A stretch of DNA of 64,000 nt from Bacteroidetes bacterium 47-18 (lineage in GTDB: Bacteria; Bacteroidota; Bacteroidia; Chitinophagales; Chitinophagaceae). The stretch lies in assembly GCA_001897155.1 (NCBI GenBank), contig MKSF01000028.1, forward strand, positions 1-64,000, written 5' to 3'. Positions 3,244 to 44,993 of the stretch are shown piece after piece (positions within the stretch are counted from its first letter, which is position 1; every line of letters begins with the position of its first letter). The notes under the pieces are model-generated. The model was not told where the DNA came from, ran no database searches, and saw nothing but the letters and a program-made list of their open reading frames with translations. The translations under genes and the position numbers were made by a program.

Positions 3244-4476
3244 TTAAATGTTGATGATCCGGCCTTCCAGCTCGTGCTGCAGCAGGGGGGAGTTGATCCC
3301 CAGGCTTTTTTTGCTGTTGTTATTGAAGGTCCATTTGCCCGCCGGGTCGATAATGGTAAAGTCCCTGCCGTCTTTTGCGATCGTGGCCGCTTCCAGCCTG
3401 AAAATCTTCCTGGCATTCCCGCTCATCAGGCTGCAGAGTGTTTCATCGCTGATGCCGGGGATGGCCTCCCGTATCATCGCATAGGCAGTTTCGATGGTAT
3501 TCATGCCATAGGCAGTATATTCGAACTCCCTGGTCTTGGCATCCCATTCGTGTGAACGGTGATGGGTGGCAATACAGTCAATGGTGCCGTCCAGCACTGC
3601 GGCAATGAGCGCCTGCCTGTCGCTTTCGCTTCTCAGCGGCGGTTCCACTTTATAATTGCTGTCGTAGGTTTCCAGGATAGCGTCTGTATAGAGCAGGTGG
3701 TGAGGGGTGACGGAGCAGCTTACATCCAGGCCTTCATTTTTGGCAGCCTTTATCAGCTCCAGCGATGCTGCGGTGGAGATACCGCTGAAATGCAATCTGG
3801 ATCCTGTATAGCGCAGTAATTCAAGGTCCCTGTACACCTGCAGGCTTTCGGCTATTGAAGGAATGCCCGGCATACCCCATTTCACGGAGTTGGGCCCTTC
3901 GTGCATTAAGCCTCCCGCTGCCAGCGACTGGTTGACAGGCACCTGTATGATAATGCCGTCAAACGACTTCACATATTCCAGGGCCTTAAGCAGCAGCTGT
4001 GCGTTCTGTACCGGCTTCCAGCCGTCAGAGAAAGCGATGGCCCCGGCGTAATACATATCCAGCATTTCCGCCAGCTCCTTTCCTTCCGTACCCTTGCTCA
4101 CGGCTCCCAGGGGATGTACTTTGGCGGCAGCCGAACGGCCTTTGTTCACTATAAATTCCACCATGGATTTATTGTGTATGACAGGTTGGGTATTGGGTAC
4201 CACGAATACCTGCCGGAATCCCCCGTTAACGGCCGCGGCGAGACCGGAATGGATGGTTTCCTTATGCTCGTAGCCGGGTTCGGAAAAATCCGCCATTACA
4301 TCTACCCAGCCGGGCATGATGGTCATACCGCCGGCCTCTATCACCTGGTCCGCTTCATTGTCAAGCTGTGGGGCGATTTGAATAATGGTGTGATTATCAA
4401 TCAAAATATCCACATTCTGATTGTGAAATTCAGAAGACGTATCTGATACTTTTACTTGTTGAAGGAGTGTCGACAT
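3244..4476 (-). CDS. dihydroorotase-like protein lacking the metal ligands (probable pseudo-enzyme)
   Basis: 410 aa from the ATG at 4476; a TTG further upstream overlaps the -7 box. Overall it aligns to class I dihydroorotases: PGW-D...EPGYEHKETI, SLAAGGLMHEG, GMPGIPSIAE, SVTPHHLL, PPLRSESDR and a C-terminal amidohydrolase strand region. The expected ligands are missing: HxH after PG-hD reads M-A-D, the ligand before SLAAGG is absent (IIIQVPVN), HxxHxST reads HFSGIST, and the catalytic Asp of ATDHAPH reads ATHHRSH. It therefore probably cannot catalyse carbamoyl-aspartate cyclisation. It may be a non-catalytic partner, as known for PyrC'-type proteins in aspartate carbamoyltransferase complexes; this is inference. 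A true pyrC should lie elsewhere. Confidence 0.85.
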   Translation of the reverse strand: MSTLLQQVKVSDTSSEFHNQNVDILIDNHTIIQIAPQLDNEADQVIEAGGMTIMPGWVDVMADFSEPGYEHKETIHSGLAAAVNGGFRQVFVVPNTQPVIHNKSMVEFIVNKGRSAAAKVHPLGAVSKGTEGKELAEMLDMYYAGAIAFSDGWKPVQNAQLLLKALEYVKSFDGIIIQVPVNQSLAAGGLMHEGPNSVKWGMPGIPSIAESLQVYRDLELLRYTGSRLHFSGISTAASLELIKAAKNEGLDVSCSVTPHHLLYTDAILETYDSNYKVEPPLRSESDRQALIAAVLDGTIDCIATHHRSHEWDAKTREFEYTAYGMNTIETAYAMIREAIPGISDETLCSLMSGNARKIFRLEAATIAKDGRDFTIIDPAGKWTFNNNSKKSLGINSPLLQHELEGRIINI

Positions 4477-27287: not shown

Positions 27288-27379
27288 CCCGGACAGCAGG
27301 GCAATTATATGCAGGAAACTGTTTGAAAGCCTCTTTTATTGTTATATTGCGCTTGTCTTGTCACCTGCAGCTTTGTGAA

Positions 27380-27960
27380 GGGTATGGTTTATAATGGTTT
27401 TGGCTGGGCTTCGACAGGGCTCAGCCTGACAGATGCAAGGACTTGTCACATACAGCTTGTTGGTTCCACATTGAGCTTGTCGAAGGGTGTGGTTTATAAT
27501 TGTTTTGCTAGGGCTTCGACGGGGCTCAGCCTGACAGATTACGGACTTGTCACGTTAAGCTTGGCGAAGGGTGTGGTTTATAATGGTTTTGGCAGGGCTT
27601 CGATGGAGGCTCAGCCTGACAGATGGAAGGACTTGTCAAGTTAAGCTTGTCGAAGGGTATGGTTTATAATTGTTTTGGCAGGGCTTCGACGGAGGCTCAG
27701 CCTGACAGATTACGGACTTGTCACATACAGCTTTGTTGGTTCCACATTGAGCTTGTCGAAGGGTGTGGTTTATAATTGTTTTGGCAGGGCTTCGACGGGG
27801 CTCAGCCTGACAGATTACGGACTTGTCACGTTAAGCTTTGTGAAGGGTGTGGTTTATAATTGTTTTGGCAGGGCTTCGATGGAGGCTCAGCCTGACAGGT
27901 GAGAGGCTTGTCATATTGAGCTCATCTTGTCACATTGAGCTTGTCGAAATGTGCTATGTA
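27380..27960. repeat. higher-order tandem repeat array of palindromic elements
   Basis: Six imperfect units each contain GGTTTATAAT (at 27386, 27491, 27575, 27661, 27767 and 27851), a TTCGAC/GTCGAAG pair and CTCAGCCTGACAG. Spacings are 105, 84, 86, 106 and 84, so the array is two copies of a 275-276 bp triplet. Each unit folds because the arm TTGAGC...GTCGAAG pairs with CTTCGAC...GCTCAG. Two open frames across it translate to repeated peptides and are not genes. No other feature is seen in 27288-28042 besides this and the hairpin at 27967. Confidence 0.85.
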
Positions 27961-36994: not shown

Positions 36995-39217
<2,223 letters not shown>

Positions 39218-39275: not shown

Positions 39276-39319
39276 ATATATGACCGTAAAGATTGTATGC
39301 AATTTCCGGAAACAATATC

Positions 39320-39920
39320 ACCCCTTCGGGGTTGATTTTCTATAATCGTTTCACCCTTTCAGGGTTGTTGGATGCTTTTATAATCATTCCACCGCTTCGC
39401 GGTTATGTGGAACAAGCCCGTAGAGGTAGTTACTATTATAGGTATGCTTCGCGATCGTGCTAAATAAGCCCGCAGGGCTGATATTATTATAGAAATATGT
39501 GTATCATTATAAAAACCACGACGTGGTGACATTTTTTGTTGTTGATCATAATGGTGTCACCCCTTCGGGGTTGGTGTTCTATTTAAATGTGCTATAATTA
39601 TTTCACCCTTTCAGGGTTGGTTATGCTTTTTATAATCATTCCACCGTTTCGCGGTTGTGCCAAATAAGCCCGTAGGGCCGATATTATTATAGAAATATGT
39701 GTATCATTACAAGAACCACAACGTGGTGACATTTTTTGTTATTGATCATAATGGTGTCACCCCTTCGGGGTTGGTGTTCTATTTAATGTGCTATAATTAT
39801 TTCACCCTTTTAGGGTTGGGTGATGCTTTTCATAATCATTCCACCGCTTCGCGGTTGTGTCATACAAGCCCGTAGGGCTGGTACTATTATAGTATATCAT
39901 TATAAAAACCACAACGTGGT
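39320..39920. repeat. left mini-hairpin array, three units of five hairpins
   Basis: Three direct units contain hairpins A-E in fixed order, each a 5-bp stem with a 3-nt loop (13 nt). A is ACCCC/GGGGT (39320, 39559, 39759), B ACCCT/AGGGT (39353, 39605, 39804), C ACCGC/GCGGT (39391, 39643, 39843), D AGCCC/GGGCT (39467, 39667, 39867), E ACCAC/GTGGT (39515, 39715, 39908). A-C carry TTC-type loops on the plus strand, D and E the complement orientation. The A-to-A distances are 239 and 200. The first unit has an extra segment between C and D with a broken D copy. Confidence 0.9.
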
Positions 39921-40212
39921 GATATTTTGTTGCTGATTATGATTTGTCACATGTATTATTCATTTCTTTGGAATTAAGATAATTTTTTTAATAAATTTTA
40001 TTGATAATTAATTTTAGAAAAAAATATATATTTATAATATTAAATAATTTAAAAGAAAAGAAATATTGTCTATGATAGTTGTGGAAAATAATAATAGGAT
40101 TATACGATATGAAATAGTATTTATTAATGGGTGCCAATATTATATCTCTATACAGCACAGAAATCCCGAAGGGATGACAAGATTATAGCTATGAAAATCA
40201 TATTATTTAACC
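39921..40212. other. AT-rich spacer inside the hairpin region
   Basis: About 290 bases of very AT-rich sequence with no gene. It contains one extra mini-hairpin variant, ATCCC-GAA-GGGAT, at 40163-40175, in the orientation opposite to A. Confidence 0.6.
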
Positions 40213-40730
40213 CAACCCCGAAGGGGTGATATAAACACCAAGAATATGGCGGGTACATTTTCACAAATTTATATCCAATATGTTTTTGCTGTAAAAAACA
40301 GACAAAACCTATTAAGCCAGTCCTGGAGAGCAGAAGTGTTCAAATACATTGCAGGTATTATTAAAGGTAAAAATCAAAAGCCTATTATTGTGAATGGTGT
40401 TGCAGACCACGTTCATGTATTTGTAGGTTTAAAGCCTTCTATGAGCATTGCGGACCTGGTAAGGGACATTAAAAATAATTCATCCAATTATATTAACGCA
40501 CAAAAATGGGTACGGGGGAAATTTTCCTGGCAGGAGGGATATGGAGCCTTTTCTTATGCGCATTCCCAGATAGAGGATGTATATCAATATATAGCGAATC
40601 AGGAGGAGCATCACAGAAAGAAAACCTTTAAAGAAGAATATCTTGAATTTTTACGCAGGTTTGAGATTGATTATAATGACCAGTATTTATTTGATTGGAT
40701 AGATTAAATGATATCACCCCTTCGGGGTTG
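40213..40730 (+). mobile_element. RAYT unit bracketed by perfect 20-bp inverted repeats
   Basis: The 20 bases at 40213-40232 are the exact reverse complement of those at 40711-40730; both include hairpin A (ACCCC-TTC-GGGGT). The 518-bp unit holds only the transposase gene. The left copy is inverted relative to all other A hairpins, while the right copy also serves as the first hairpin of the right array. Confidence 0.8.
40246..40707 (+). CDS. IS200/IS605-type Y1 transposase, REP-associated (RAYT-like)
   Basis: 153 aa, the usual size of a Y1 HUH transposase. The HUH motif is in ADHVHVFVGL (His55 and His57), and the catalytic Tyr is expected at 115 (or 113) in DVYQYIANQEEHHRKKTF. FSYAHSQIEDVYQYI and the N-terminal IQYVFAVKNRQ are typical of the family. 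Y1 enzymes cut single-stranded DNA at hairpin ends. The gene lies between mini-hairpin arrays, as RAYTs do next to REP elements. No accessory TnpB gene is present. The frame is intact, so it may be active. Confidence 0.92.
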   Translation: MAGTFSQIYIQYVFAVKNRQNLLSQSWRAEVFKYIAGIIKGKNQKPIIVNGVADHVHVFVGLKPSMSIADLVRDIKNNSSNYINAQKWVRGKFSWQEGYGAFSYAHSQIEDVYQYIANQEEHHRKKTFKEEYLEFLRRFEIDYNDQYLFDWID

Positions 40731-41275
40731 ATGGCATATTTAAATGTGCTATAATTATTTCACCCTTTCAGGGTTGGTTGATGGTTTTATAATCATTCCA
40801 CCGCTTCGCGGTTATGTGAAATAAGCCAGGATGGCTAATAGATATGGGTATCGTTACCAGAACCATGATGTAGTGACATTTTTTGTTATTGATTATAATG
40901 TGTCACCCCCTTCGGGGTTGATGGCATATTTAAATGTGCTATAATTATTTCACCCTTTCAGGGTTAGGTAGATGCTTTATTCTTATCATCATTCCACCGC
41001 TTTGCGGTTATGTGAAATAAGCCAGGATGGCTAATAGATATGAGTATCGTTACCAGAACCATGATGTAGTGACATTTTTTGTTATTGATTATAATGTGTC
41101 ACCCCCTTCGGGGTTGATGTAATGTTGAATGTATTTTTATAGTCATTGTACCCTTTCAGGGTTTGTGGATGGTTTATTCTTAATCATTCACCTCTTTGTG
41201 GTTGTGTTATAGAAGCCCGAAGGGCTGGTATGATTATAGAAATATGTGTATTATTTTATAAAACCACGACGTGGT
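40716..41275. repeat. right mini-hairpin array, three units of five hairpins
   Basis: Same order A-E as the left array: A at 40716, 40905 and 41101; B at 40762, 40952 and 41150; C at 40800, 40996 and 41190; D at 40824, 41020 and 41214; E at 40862, 41058 and 41263. A-to-A distances are 189 and 196. The first two units have the compensated D stem AGCCA/TGGCT and a weakened E; the third keeps AGCCC/GGGCT and ACCAC/GTGGT. A in units 5 and 6 has one extra C. No gene is seen in 40708-41418 besides the array and the terminator at 41362. Confidence 0.9.
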
Positions 41276-41361
41276 GACATTTTTGCCGATATTGATTTCT
41301 AAACGTTACCTTTCTATATGGTCATTCTTTTGTAACGATAATTCCCTTATACGCTCAATAA

Positions 41362-41418: not shown

Positions 41419-44352
41419 TTAATAACCGAAGATCTCCTCAAGGCTCAATATCTTTACTTCACCCAGTTTCCTGGCGCTTTCCATATCAAACTTATCCTGG
41501 TTGGCCACAATACAATAGGTATATGGCTTACCGCTGAATTCATTTTTATGGAACGTGCTGATATCGTTGAATGTCAGGCTGGGGATAGTGTTGTAGATAT
41601 CTTTGCGGATATCGAAATCCCTGCCTAATTTTTTAGCACTCAGGTAGCTGAAGATAATACCTTCCTGCGTGGTACGCTGGGTAGCCAGTGATTTTCTCAG
41701 GCTTTCCTTGGCTGTATTGAGCGCTTTTTCAGACTGCGGTAATGTCGTTAATAATTCATTCATCGCAGCAACGGATTCATTGAACTTGTCGGCCTGTGTA
41801 CCTACATAGGCAGTGATCGTATTCCTGTAGTCCTTGTTGCTGGGCGTGCTGAAGAATGCGTAAGTGGAATAAGCCAGCGCTTTGGTCTCCCTGATGGTCT
41901 GGAATACTACGGAGCCCATGCCGCCGCCGAAATATTCATTGAATAAATAGATCCTGGGCAGTAATTTGGCATCATATAGCTCACTGTTCCTGACCCACCT
42001 GATATCAGCCTGAACCATATCGTAATTGGCAAATAATACAGATGTCCTGTTCTGGGGAACCTGGGTGTACCTGATATTGTTTTTGATAGGCTGCAGGCCG
42101 TCGCTTGGATAAGGATGCGCTTTGATGACCTGTGTAGCCACGGTCCTGATATCTTTAGGGCCGTAATACAATATCTGGTGCTCTTTGTTGAGCAGAGCGG
42201 TAATTGCGTTGATCAGGTCCTGCGCTTTCAGGTTTTTCAGCTCTTCATTGGTCAGCACATTGTTATAAGGATTTTTAGCTCCGTATAAAGCATAGTTCTG
42301 TACACCGCTCATGATGGCGTTCTTGTTCTTCTTGTTGTTGACCCTTGCCTGCATCAGGCGTGCTTTATAGGCATTGAGGGCATCTTCGTCCGCCAGCGCG
42401 GTCCTCAGCATTTTTTCAACCAGCGCCACTGTGGCGTCAAAGTTTTCGTACAGGCCGTCAATGCTGATCCTGGTGTTTTCAGCGCCTACGTTGATGCTGA
42501 AAGAAGCTGCCAGCGCATACATCTTTTCACTGAACTCGGAAGCGCTCATATCCCTGGTGCCAACGTAATTGATGTAATCTGCGGCGAGCGAAAGCATCTT
42601 ATTGTCCCAGCTACCTGTTTCAAAGTTGTAGTAGAGGCGGAACAGGTCATTATCCTTATTTTCAACGCTCAGGAATTCATAGCCCCCTTGTTTGTGGCGG
42701 GTCATATCGGTATTGTAATCCAGCCATTTCGGCGCAATGGTATTTTCCGGGATGTTCTTAACGCTTCTGGAAAAGTCAGATTCCGATTCGGTATTGATCT
42801 TTAATGGAGTGATGCTTGGTTTATCTACCTTGGTGATATTCTTATCGGTGCCCTGGCGTTTATATACCGCTACATAGTTATTGCCGAAATATTTATTGGC
42901 AAAGGCCATGATGTCTTTCTTCGTGATCCGGGAAAGTATCTGTGTATAATTCACGCGGTCCGCCCAGTCTTCTTCAGAGGTAAAGCAACTCACCAGGTTA
43001 CTTGCGGTAGCACTGTAATTCTCGTAAGTCTCTATCATGCTTTTCTTCTCGTTGTTGACGATAGCCTGTAGCAGCTCATCGGAGAATGCGCCTTTTTTCA
43101 GCTTCTCTATTTCGCCCAGCATCAGGTTTTTCACATCATCCAGGGATTGTCCTTCTACCGGACGACCCTGCAGGATCAGCATGCTGTAATCTTTGAGCGT
43201 ATAAGCAAAGGCGTAGGCGCCCAGCAATTTCTGGTCCAGTACCAGGTTCAGGTCCATCAGGCCGGCAGAGCCGTTGGTCAGTATCTTGCCTACCAGCTCC
43301 AGTATCTTGGCATCGGGATGGCTGACGCCCGGTAATCGGTAGCCTATCATGATATTCTCCGCTTCAGGGCCGGTAACATCAACATTGACAGGGGATGTAA
43401 TGGGCGCTTCCGGCTGGAAAGTGTACGGCTTGACCGTTTTGGAGGTCATATAGCCGAAGTCCTTGTCGATCTGCCTGATCACTTCATCAGGGTTGAAGTC
43501 TCCCACCATGATGATACCCATATTATTGGGTACATAATAATTCTGGAAATACCTGCGGATCTCTATCAGGGAAGGATTCTTCAGGTGCTCTACGGTACCG
43601 ATGGTAGTTTGCAGGCCGTAATTGTGCTTTTTGAACAGGTTGGCGGTCATGGCTTCAAACTGCTTGCTGCCATCCCTGTCCATGCTCATGTTCTTCTCTT
43701 CGTACACCGCTTCCAGCTCCGTATGGAAGATCCTCAGGATCGGGTTACGGAAACGTTCTGCCTGTACGGCAAGATATTTATTGATGGCATTGGAAGGCAC
43801 ATCTTCGGTGTAGACCGTTTCTTCAAAGGAGGTCCAGGCATTGGTGCCCTTTGCGCCCATGGTGGTCATCATCTTATCGTATTCGTTGGGAATGGCATAT
43901 TGAACGGCCACGCCCGAAACGCTGTCGATCTGCCTGTAGATAGCCTTTCTTTTGGCTTCGTCCTTTGTTTTATTGTATTGCTCATAAAGCCCGTCAATGG
44001 CATCCAGCAGCGGCTTTTCCTTTGCCCAGTCGGCCGAGCCGAATTTGTCCGTGCCTTTGAACAGCATATGCTCCAGGTAGTGCGCCAGTCCCGTATTGGT
44101 AGCGGGGTCAGTTTTGCTGCCCGCCTTTACAGCGATGTAGGTCTGTACACGGGGCTCTTTCTCATTCTTGCTTAAAATGACGGTCAGGCCGTTCTTCAAG
44201 GTATAGAAGCGGGAATTGGTAGGATCGTTGGGAAGATACTTATAGGAATATCCGCCTGAGGTTCCTTGTTTCCAGTCACCCTGCTGCGCTGCGGCATACC
44301 ATGGCAGCAGTGCAACGATGACCAGGGCTTTGAATAAATTTCTGATATTCAT
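41419..44352 (-). CDS. M16 family zinc protease, exported, two-domain
   Basis: 977 aa from the ATG at 44352, chosen because it opens a signal peptide (MNIRNLFKALVIVALLPWYAAAQ); the longer frame runs into the region upstream of the azurin gene. The first M16 domain carries the inverted zinc motif HYLEH (His91, Glu94, His95), with the third ligand expected at the EAVYEEKNM helix. Two inactive M16-like C-terminal domains follow (with PVNVDVTGPEAENIMIGYRLPG and RETKALAYSTYAFFSTPS). It likely degrades peptides in the periplasm or outer envelope. Divergent from the azurin-like gene. Confidence 0.92.
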   Translation of the reverse strand: MNIRNLFKALVIVALLPWYAAAQQGDWKQGTSGGYSYKYLPNDPTNSRFYTLKNGLTVILSKNEKEPRVQTYIAVKAGSKTDPATNTGLAHYLEHMLFKGTDKFGSADWAKEKPLLDAIDGLYEQYNKTKDEAKRKAIYRQIDSVSGVAVQYAIPNEYDKMMTTMGAKGTNAWTSFEETVYTEDVPSNAINKYLAVQAERFRNPILRIFHTELEAVYEEKNMSMDRDGSKQFEAMTANLFKKHNYGLQTTIGTVEHLKNPSLIEIRRYFQNYYVPNNMGIIMVGDFNPDEVIRQIDKDFGYMTSKTVKPYTFQPEAPITSPVNVDVTGPEAENIMIGYRLPGVSHPDAKILELVGKILTNGSAGLMDLNLVLDQKLLGAYAFAYTLKDYSMLILQGRPVEGQSLDDVKNLMLGEIEKLKKGAFSDELLQAIVNNEKKSMIETYENYSATASNLVSCFTSEEDWADRVNYTQILSRITKKDIMAFANKYFGNNYVAVYKRQGTDKNITKVDKPSITPLKINTESESDFSRSVKNIPENTIAPKWLDYNTDMTRHKQGGYEFLSVENKDNDLFRLYYNFETGSWDNKMLSLAADYINYVGTRDMSASEFSEKMYALAASFSINVGAENTRISIDGLYENFDATVALVEKMLRTALADEDALNAYKARLMQARVNNKKNKNAIMSGVQNYALYGAKNPYNNVLTNEELKNLKAQDLINAITALLNKEHQILYYGPKDIRTVATQVIKAHPYPSDGLQPIKNNIRYTQVPQNRTSVLFANYDMVQADIRWVRNSELYDAKLLPRIYLFNEYFGGGMGSVVFQTIRETKALAYSTYAFFSTPSNKDYRNTITAYVGTQADKFNESVAAMNELLTTLPQSEKALNTAKESLRKSLATQRTTQEGIIFSYLSAKKLGRDFDIRKDIYNTIPSLTFNDISTFHKNEFSGKPYTYCIVANQDKFDMESARKLGEVKILSLEEIFGY

Positions 44353-44477
44353 TTTTGAATTGTTTTTATAATACACGAAAATAACGCTTTTCGTGGTGTT
44401 GAATTGTAAATTATTTATTATTCGTATCGCGTGTTCCGCTTTTGGTCGTAATTTTACCTCAACCATAATTTTTTCAA

Positions 44478-44993
44478 ATGAAACAAAGTGTTTTAATTTT
44501 CGCGATCTCCTGCCTGCTGGCCTCCTGCGGCAGTAATGACTCTGCCGACCATCAGCATGCTGCGGCCCAGACAAGCAATGTTAATAAGGCAGTGCTGGAA
44601 GCGGACATAACGGATGGCAGGCAGGTAGTGGTGCTGCTGGCTGATGATAATATGAAATTTAACGCTAAGGAGGTGAAAGTAAAAGCGGGTATGCCGGTGG
44701 AGCTGACACTGAAGCATACGGGCAAGGCGCCGAAAGCGACTATGGGACATAATGTGGTCATTCTCCGGCCGGATGTGGTGGTATCTGATTTCGTGGAGCG
44801 TGCCAATGCAGCGGCTGCAACCGATTACATACCCGAAGAGCTTACCGGCCAGATCGTAGTGCACACCAGGATGCTGGGTGGTGGTGAGAGCGATACTCAG
44901 ACCTTTACATTTGAAAAGCCTGGCACTTATACGTTCCTGTGTACCTTTCCCGGTCATTCCATGATCATGAAAGGTAAATTTGTGGTGGAATAG
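44478..44993 (+). CDS. azurin-like cupredoxin lipoprotein
   Basis: 171 aa with a lipoprotein signal (MKQSVLIFAISCLLASCGS, Cys at 17). The cupredoxin domain (about 45-171) has the azurin type-1 copper ligands His91 (MGHNVV), Cys155, His160 and Met164 (FLCTFPGHSMIMKG), with the usual +5 and +9 spacing from Cys. It probably carries electrons in the periplasm or on the outer membrane to a cytochrome oxidase or peroxidase; the partner is not visible. It precedes the GT39 gene, which has its own -7 box. Confidence 0.9.
   Translation: MKQSVLIFAISCLLASCGSNDSADHQHAAAQTSNVNKAVLEADITDGRQVVVLLADDNMKFNAKEVKVKAGMPVELTLKHTGKAPKATMGHNVVILRPDVVVSDFVERANAAAATDYIPEELTGQIVVHTRMLGGGESDTQTFTFEKPGTYTFLCTFPGHSMIMKGKFVVE

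Follow-up and report, generated by a model that had tools for sequence, protein, structure and literature searches.

The locus analyzed here, a gene for a Y1 transposase embedded in arrays of short and dissimilar hairpins, raises the question of whether a single enzyme of this kind may be associated with a whole set of hairpins and, if so, whether these are separate recognition sites or permitted forms of one substrate. It lies in a stretch of 64,000 nucleotides (hereafter the window) from Bacteroidetes bacterium 47-18, whose 3.87-Mb genome is assembled in 39 contigs; the relatives searched belong to its own family and order.

Classification of the transposase

The gene (tnpA, positions 40246–40707, plus strand) encodes a Y1 (HUH) transposase of 153 aa, recognized by its matches to Pfam Y1_Tnp (84.7 bits) and to the NCBIfam IS200 family NF033573 (66.7 bits), its motifs and its fold, and it is the sole Y1 gene of the genome. 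The motifs are DHVH, FSWQ and YIANQEEHH, and the DH-x-H, WQ and Y---Q--HH columns are conserved in at least 90% of the rows of a 63-row alignment of homologs. For an AF2 model of the protein (pLDDT 92.7), the best Foldseek matches were the TnpA proteins of ISDra2 and IS608, with TnpAREP (4er8) only at rank 30; a phmmer search of the PDB with the single sequence gave no match, whereas a profile search did, and it also put the protein with ISDra2 and IS608 TnpA.

Subclass 1.2 of TnpAY1, as described by Quentin et al. in 2018 (PMC6006769), has the motifs DH[IV]H, WQ and Y---Q--HH in a protein of about 148 aa, and is a sister of or close to the IS200 transposases. Its members, found in Bacteroidetes and Cyanobacteria, have a low copy number; they generally lack the terminal structures typical of IS200, and REPs are recorded as "no". 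Judged by its sequence the window enzyme is a member of this subclass, with which it shares not only the motifs but also the length (153 aa), the low copy number (one) and the distribution, the homologs compared being mostly from Bacteroidota. The gene had initially been annotated as a RAYT, a name that could not be kept in the strict sense (class 2, TnpAREP), as the protein has Y---Q--HH instead of Y---NP and its nearest structures are ISDra2 and IS608 TnpA, ahead of TnpAREP; the hairpin tag, AT-N-[TC]-C, also differs from the GT[AG]G of class 2.

The transposase of a locus from an Ignavibacteria MAG (L087) is 84% identical to the product of 40246–40707, which suggests horizontal transfer, or else a binning error in the MAG. 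In-frame stop codons were seen in two subclass-1.2 genes, those of L105 and L156 (gene at 4001–4456); tagged hairpins are kept at L156 and none were found at L105.

Organization of the hairpin cassettes

The array and the gene are situated between two convergent ORFs, 36998–39217 (plus strand) and 41419–44574 (minus strand). Six units of about 200 bp, each holding five hairpin types in a fixed order, with three units on each side of the gene (U1–U3, approximately 39300–39936; U4–U6, approximately 40700–41290), had been described in the initial annotation, and this layout was recovered with exact coordinates, the first hairpin starting at 39320 and the last one ending at 41275. Within a unit the order is A (ACCCC), B (ACCCT) and C (ACCGC), with the tag on the plus strand, followed by D (AGCCC) and E (ACCAC), with the tag on the minus strand, which bears out the opposite orientation of A–C and D–E that had been noticed before.

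All units are read on the plus strand. Upstream of the gene, unit 1 (39300–39542) has A at 39320, B at 39353, C at 39391, D at 39467 and E at 39515, with an extra degenerate C/D stretch between C and D; unit 2 (39543–39742) has A at 39559, B at 39605, C at 39643 (with a G.T pair), D at 39667 (with an end mismatch) and E at 39715; and unit 3 (39743–39936) has A at 39759, B at 39804, C at 39843, D at 39867 and E at 39908. Downstream, unit 4 (40700–40889) consists of A at 40716, B at 40762, C at 40800, D at 40824 and a broken E at 40862; unit 5 (40890–41085) of A, B at 40952, C at 40996, D at 41020 and a broken E; and unit 6 (41086–41290) of A, B at 41150, a broken C, D at 41214 and E at 41263. 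A 5-bp stem with a 3-nt loop, previously ascribed to all of these hairpins, is found in 23 of the 30 slots; another two, the A copies of units 5 and 6, are perfectly paired (25/30 in all) but have a 4-nt loop, and the other five contain a mismatch or wobble (the G.T pair in C of unit 2, and mismatches in C of unit 6, D of unit 2 and E of units 4 and 5). D of units 4 and 5 carries a compensated change, AGCCA..TGGCT. The E copies of units 4 and 5 and the C copy of unit 6 are decayed, so not every copy has been kept.

Units 4 and 5 are 95% alike and units 1 and 2 are 94% alike; all six go back to the tandem copying of a single cassette, and therefore they do not amount to six independent observations and their fixed order within the locus reflects duplication. 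Counted as 5-bp/3-nt hairpins with at least three G/C per arm, there are 25 hairpins in the approximately 2 kb of the array, compared with about 0.7 per kb elsewhere in the window.

Two further hairpins, absent from the initial annotation, lie directly upstream of the gene in inverse orientation. The outer one (40163–40175, minus strand; ATCCC-TTC-GGGAT, tag TTGTC) has the same ATCCC stem as the outer hairpin flanking the gene in the close relatives L087, L088 and L090. The inner one (40215–40227, minus strand; ACCCC-TTC-GGGGT, tag ATATC) is the inverted partner of the first downstream hairpin A (40716–40728, plus strand), which has the same arms, loop and tag, begins 9 nt past the stop codon and also opens unit 4.

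Hairpins at homologous loci

One scan of public genomes provided 80 homologous loci with proteins of 51–84% identity. GC-rich 5-bp hairpins occur at these loci with a density of 5.3/kb within 250 bp of the gene, as against 0.22–0.30/kb at a distance of 2–4 kb; for DNA outside ORFs the values are 5.7/kb near the gene and 0.94/kb far from it. In non-coding DNA within 600 bp, 309 hairpins were observed, compared with 12.5 (sd 4.3) in dinucleotide shuffles, and at least one was present at 67 of the 80 subclass-1.2 loci, the remaining 13 having no hairpin near the gene under the definition used. Two further subclass-1.2 genes from plasmid records, those of Bernardetia and Persicobacter, are also accompanied by hairpins. 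Distant Y1 homologs (approximately 28–33% identical: L068, L069, L070 and L077) are without such flanking hairpins, and plasmid control loci of the IS200 type have few and unlike ones in a different arrangement.

The inverted arrangement around the gene recurs as well. After loci on the minus strand had been reversed, which preceded any count of orientation, the innermost upstream stem was found to equal the innermost downstream stem, in inverted form, at 26 of 37 loci, whereas 2000 permutations gave 8.4 on average and 15 at most. A second pair is frequently present about 50 nt farther out, sometimes with another stem (L088, L111, L121), and the combination of inner ACCCC and outer ATCCC hairpins is common to the window and its nearest relatives.

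Hairpin anatomy and stem variation

When oriented, the elements next to the gene consist of a tag, A-T-[GAT]-[TC]-C (with TGTC, TATC, TTTC and TGCC as the commonest forms), a 5-bp stem of the form RCNCC, a T-rich loop, mostly of 3 nt (T-[TA]-C/T), and then a 3' T; the composition table shows no run of T behind the stem. In most elements a (T)ATAAT box is located four bases ahead of the tag YC (window 39342, 39380, 39594 and similar), a possible cleavage site or promoter-like element.

Each of the alternative stems of the window differs from ACCCC by a single compensated base pair, and the tag, the first pair, the third pair and mostly the loop are common to all. In the window's clade, 75 of the 87 tagged non-canonical hairpins are one base pair from ACCCC, the chance expectation being 15 of 511 stems. 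Compensation was scanned with the tag and not the pairing as anchor, and with 3-nt loops only, as the 4-nt register yields false one-arm variants (ACCCC..GGGTT). Changes in both arms were compensated in 74 cases and not in 3 in the A clade (ACCCC), and in 52 and 0 cases, respectively, around GCTCC in other clades; these raw counts include inherited copies, and counting by distinct locus and stem gives 32 to 3 and 22 to 0. Changes in one arm numbered 20 in the A clade and 8 in the GCTCC clades. Since changes in both arms are mostly compensated, the stems vary without losing their pairing.

The identity of the first base pair, A-T or G-C, tracks the protein phylogeny, with 10 and 8 changes against means of 24 and 31 after shuffling (0 of 500 shuffles), and the A clade of enzymes crosses phyla, including both Bacteroidota and Ignavibacteria. 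The window has the most stem types among 96 loci, namely six; a seventh listed, CGGTT, lies outside the array.

Recurrence away from the gene

When one mismatch at most was allowed, the window's own genome yielded 30 matches, all but two of them at five hairpin places, these being the home locus and four other intergenic loci; for CACCNNTTCNNGGTT there were 27 matches, with 0 in the control. One of the four, on contig C9 (61237–62281; L081, G000:C9, 7230–8300), holds B, C, D and E in the order and relative orientation of the window, without A and without a transposase; it also lies between convergent genes, and its C–D linker is much longer than that of the window. The others are at C13 280159–280566, C4 47711–47774 and C12 18659, and the C4 locus again has B-C-D in the window's order and relative orientation without A. 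The exact canonical A was found in this genome only at the gene.

Of eight further genomes, three had copies away from the gene. In that of L142 there are 30 matches on six contigs, including its home locus (control 0); Flavobacterium foetidum has 13, with inverted pairs among them, and Desulfonema magnum has 22, among which are 13 copies of ATGTCGCCCCTACGGGGCT with a strict period of 52–53 nt (L147, 3028251–3028898), approximately 50 kb from the subclass-1.2 gene. A single degenerate pattern, not fitted to each genome, gave no match in four of seven genomes and only the home copy in one; the four negative genomes still have hairpins at their loci, with other tags or stems, so the pattern says nothing either way about them. 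Dispersal is thus documented for some genomes of the subclass and may not be universal. The initial annotation had made its REPtron-like reading, a Y1 gene with a set of related hairpins, dependent on recurrence in the genome or near homologs; hairpins recur in both, beside the homologous genes and away from them, and this reading is upheld.

REP elements usually exceed 100 copies per genome. This level is not reached here, with five places in the window's own genome and no more than 30 matches in the other genomes searched.

Proposed mechanism and alternative explanations

At the nucleotide level, the gene is bounded by inverted hairpin pairs with a tag at the 5' foot (mostly TGTC/TATC), each stem is the canonical 5-bp one (ACCCC in the window's clade) or a variant differing by a single compensated base pair, and the cassettes are tandemly duplicated around the gene. 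We consider it likely that this is a REP/BIME-like system of a class-1 (IS200-related) Y1 enzyme of subclass 1.2, which would act on one family of stem variants. By analogy with the biochemistry of IS608, ISDra2 and TnpAREP (PMC6006769, PMC8266576), the enzyme would bind folded single-stranded DNA, namely the strand of each hairpin that carries the tag, and would read the tag, the first base pair and the loop instead of the whole stem; the tag would serve as guide for a cut next to it by Tyr115, and cutting and rejoining in trans would move or amplify hairpin units while the gene stays in one copy. The five stems would then be permitted forms of one substrate. Whole cassettes have probably multiplied in tandem through ordinary repeat recombination or slippage, for which no transposase is needed, and tandem duplication alone could explain the growth of the arrays.

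That the five stems are instead separate and functionally different recognition sites, used for example by different enzymes or at different steps, is an extension of what had been proposed initially. It would fit the A-B-C-D-E order and orientation kept in all units, as well as the presence of B-C-D-E at C9 and of B-C-D at C4 without A, the canonical A staying at the gene; yet the order may be inherited by cassette duplication, the genome has only one Y1 gene, and all stems are a single compensated base pair from ACCCC with the tag, first pair and third pair in common, which makes one recognition mode with tolerated variants the more plausible and separate sites unlikely. Different again is the view that the hairpins are the ends of a subclass-1.1-like IS (IS200/IS605) that moves as a unit, with the arrays as remnants of repeated insertion. 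The closest solved structures are indeed IS200/IS605 transposases, and hairpins with a 5' guide are located subterminally at IS200 ends (PMC6006769), but an element of this kind is hard to reconcile with one gene copy in the genome, with the diverged Y1 copies inside one relative genome (e.g., 41–55% to the query in G014), with hairpins that form nested inverted pairs and arrays of as many as a dozen instead of occurring once per end, with the unlike hairpins of the IS200-type controls, and with no TnpB among the ORFs listed around the gene; we regard it as very improbable.

Host elements that adjoin the gene by chance, such as transcription terminators, mRNA stabilizers or structured RNA, have to be weighed as well. 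Both terminators and REPs are common between convergent genes, which is where the arrays in the window (C28) and on C9 are found, and the hairpins could act in such roles secondarily. As a primary explanation this is highly doubtful, however, as the type of hairpin goes with the phylogeny of the protein, even between phyla, and not with the host, density near the gene is about 20 times that found farther away, the stems on the two sides of the gene match, the stem is followed by no T-run, and an Rfam search gave no family above the cut-offs.

Comparison with known systems

The likely reading, that of a REP/BIME-like system of a subclass-1.2 enzyme, has a close counterpart in REPtrons, i.e., TnpAREP (RAYT) with REP, BIME and REPIN elements: a single-copy Y1 gene is flanked by short hairpins with a tag at the 5' foot, and inverted pairs, mosaic arrays and copies elsewhere in the genome are all found here. 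Perfect stems of 5 bp are also known for the REPs of Marinomonas (PMC8266576). Unlike in REPtrons, the enzyme is of class 1 (Y---Q--HH, not Y---NP), the tag is not GTAG/GTGG, there are few places per genome, and the stems form a set of single-base-pair variants. The several hairpin types per gene, which the initial annotation contrasted with the one or two REP types of gammaproteobacteria, are indeed present, but several REP subfamilies per gene were already known from nearly half of class-2 REPtrons (PMC6006769). With IS200/IS605 elements (IS608, ISDra2; subclass 1.1) the system shares the fold, the HUH/Y core and a hairpin with a tetranucleotide guide 5' to its foot; it differs in that the whole element is not multi-copy, TnpB is lacking, and inverted nested hairpins and arrays replace one hairpin per end.

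With respect to subclass 1.2 as published, for which neither REPs nor typical terminal structures were recorded, the tagged hairpins at most loci contradict the reported absence of REPs, which is a reported property of the subclass and not the basis of the class. No later report of REPs for subclass 1.2 or for Bacteroidota was found in the open-licence literature. A putative substrate family is thereby provided for a subclass of enzymes that had none in the published description. With it comes a natural experiment on how Y1 enzymes may read hairpins, as the stem shifts by single compensated pairs against a constant tag, first base pair and loop. If the reading is true, the Y1 superfamily has seen REP-type domestication on at least two occasions, and the GTAG tag should not be relied on in the search for REPs.

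More tentatively, subclass 1.2 may have evolved REP processing independently of RAYTs, from the IS200 branch and with a guide tag of its own (T-R-T-C); compensated variants of the stem would be tolerated or exploited, and a single enzyme would thereby maintain a mosaic of several hairpin types. The subclass might even comprise the missing transposases of TGTC/CGTC-tagged REPs. CGTC-tagged REPs, of which TGTC is a named tag variant and for which no transposase is known, are found in Bacteroidetes and other groups (Di Nocera 2013, PMC3733652). Their stems are of 8–9 bp with A/T in the first two positions, their loops of 4–5 nt and their tails CCA, in contrast with the 5-bp RCNCC stems and mostly 3-nt loops described here, and the link is only a lead.

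The window also contains a second repeat array (27373–27948; periods 86, 190 and 276), with a palindrome-like unit that includes AGCTTGTCGAAGGG and GGCTTCGACAGGGCTCAGCCTGACAG, which looks like a separate, unrelated repeat family.
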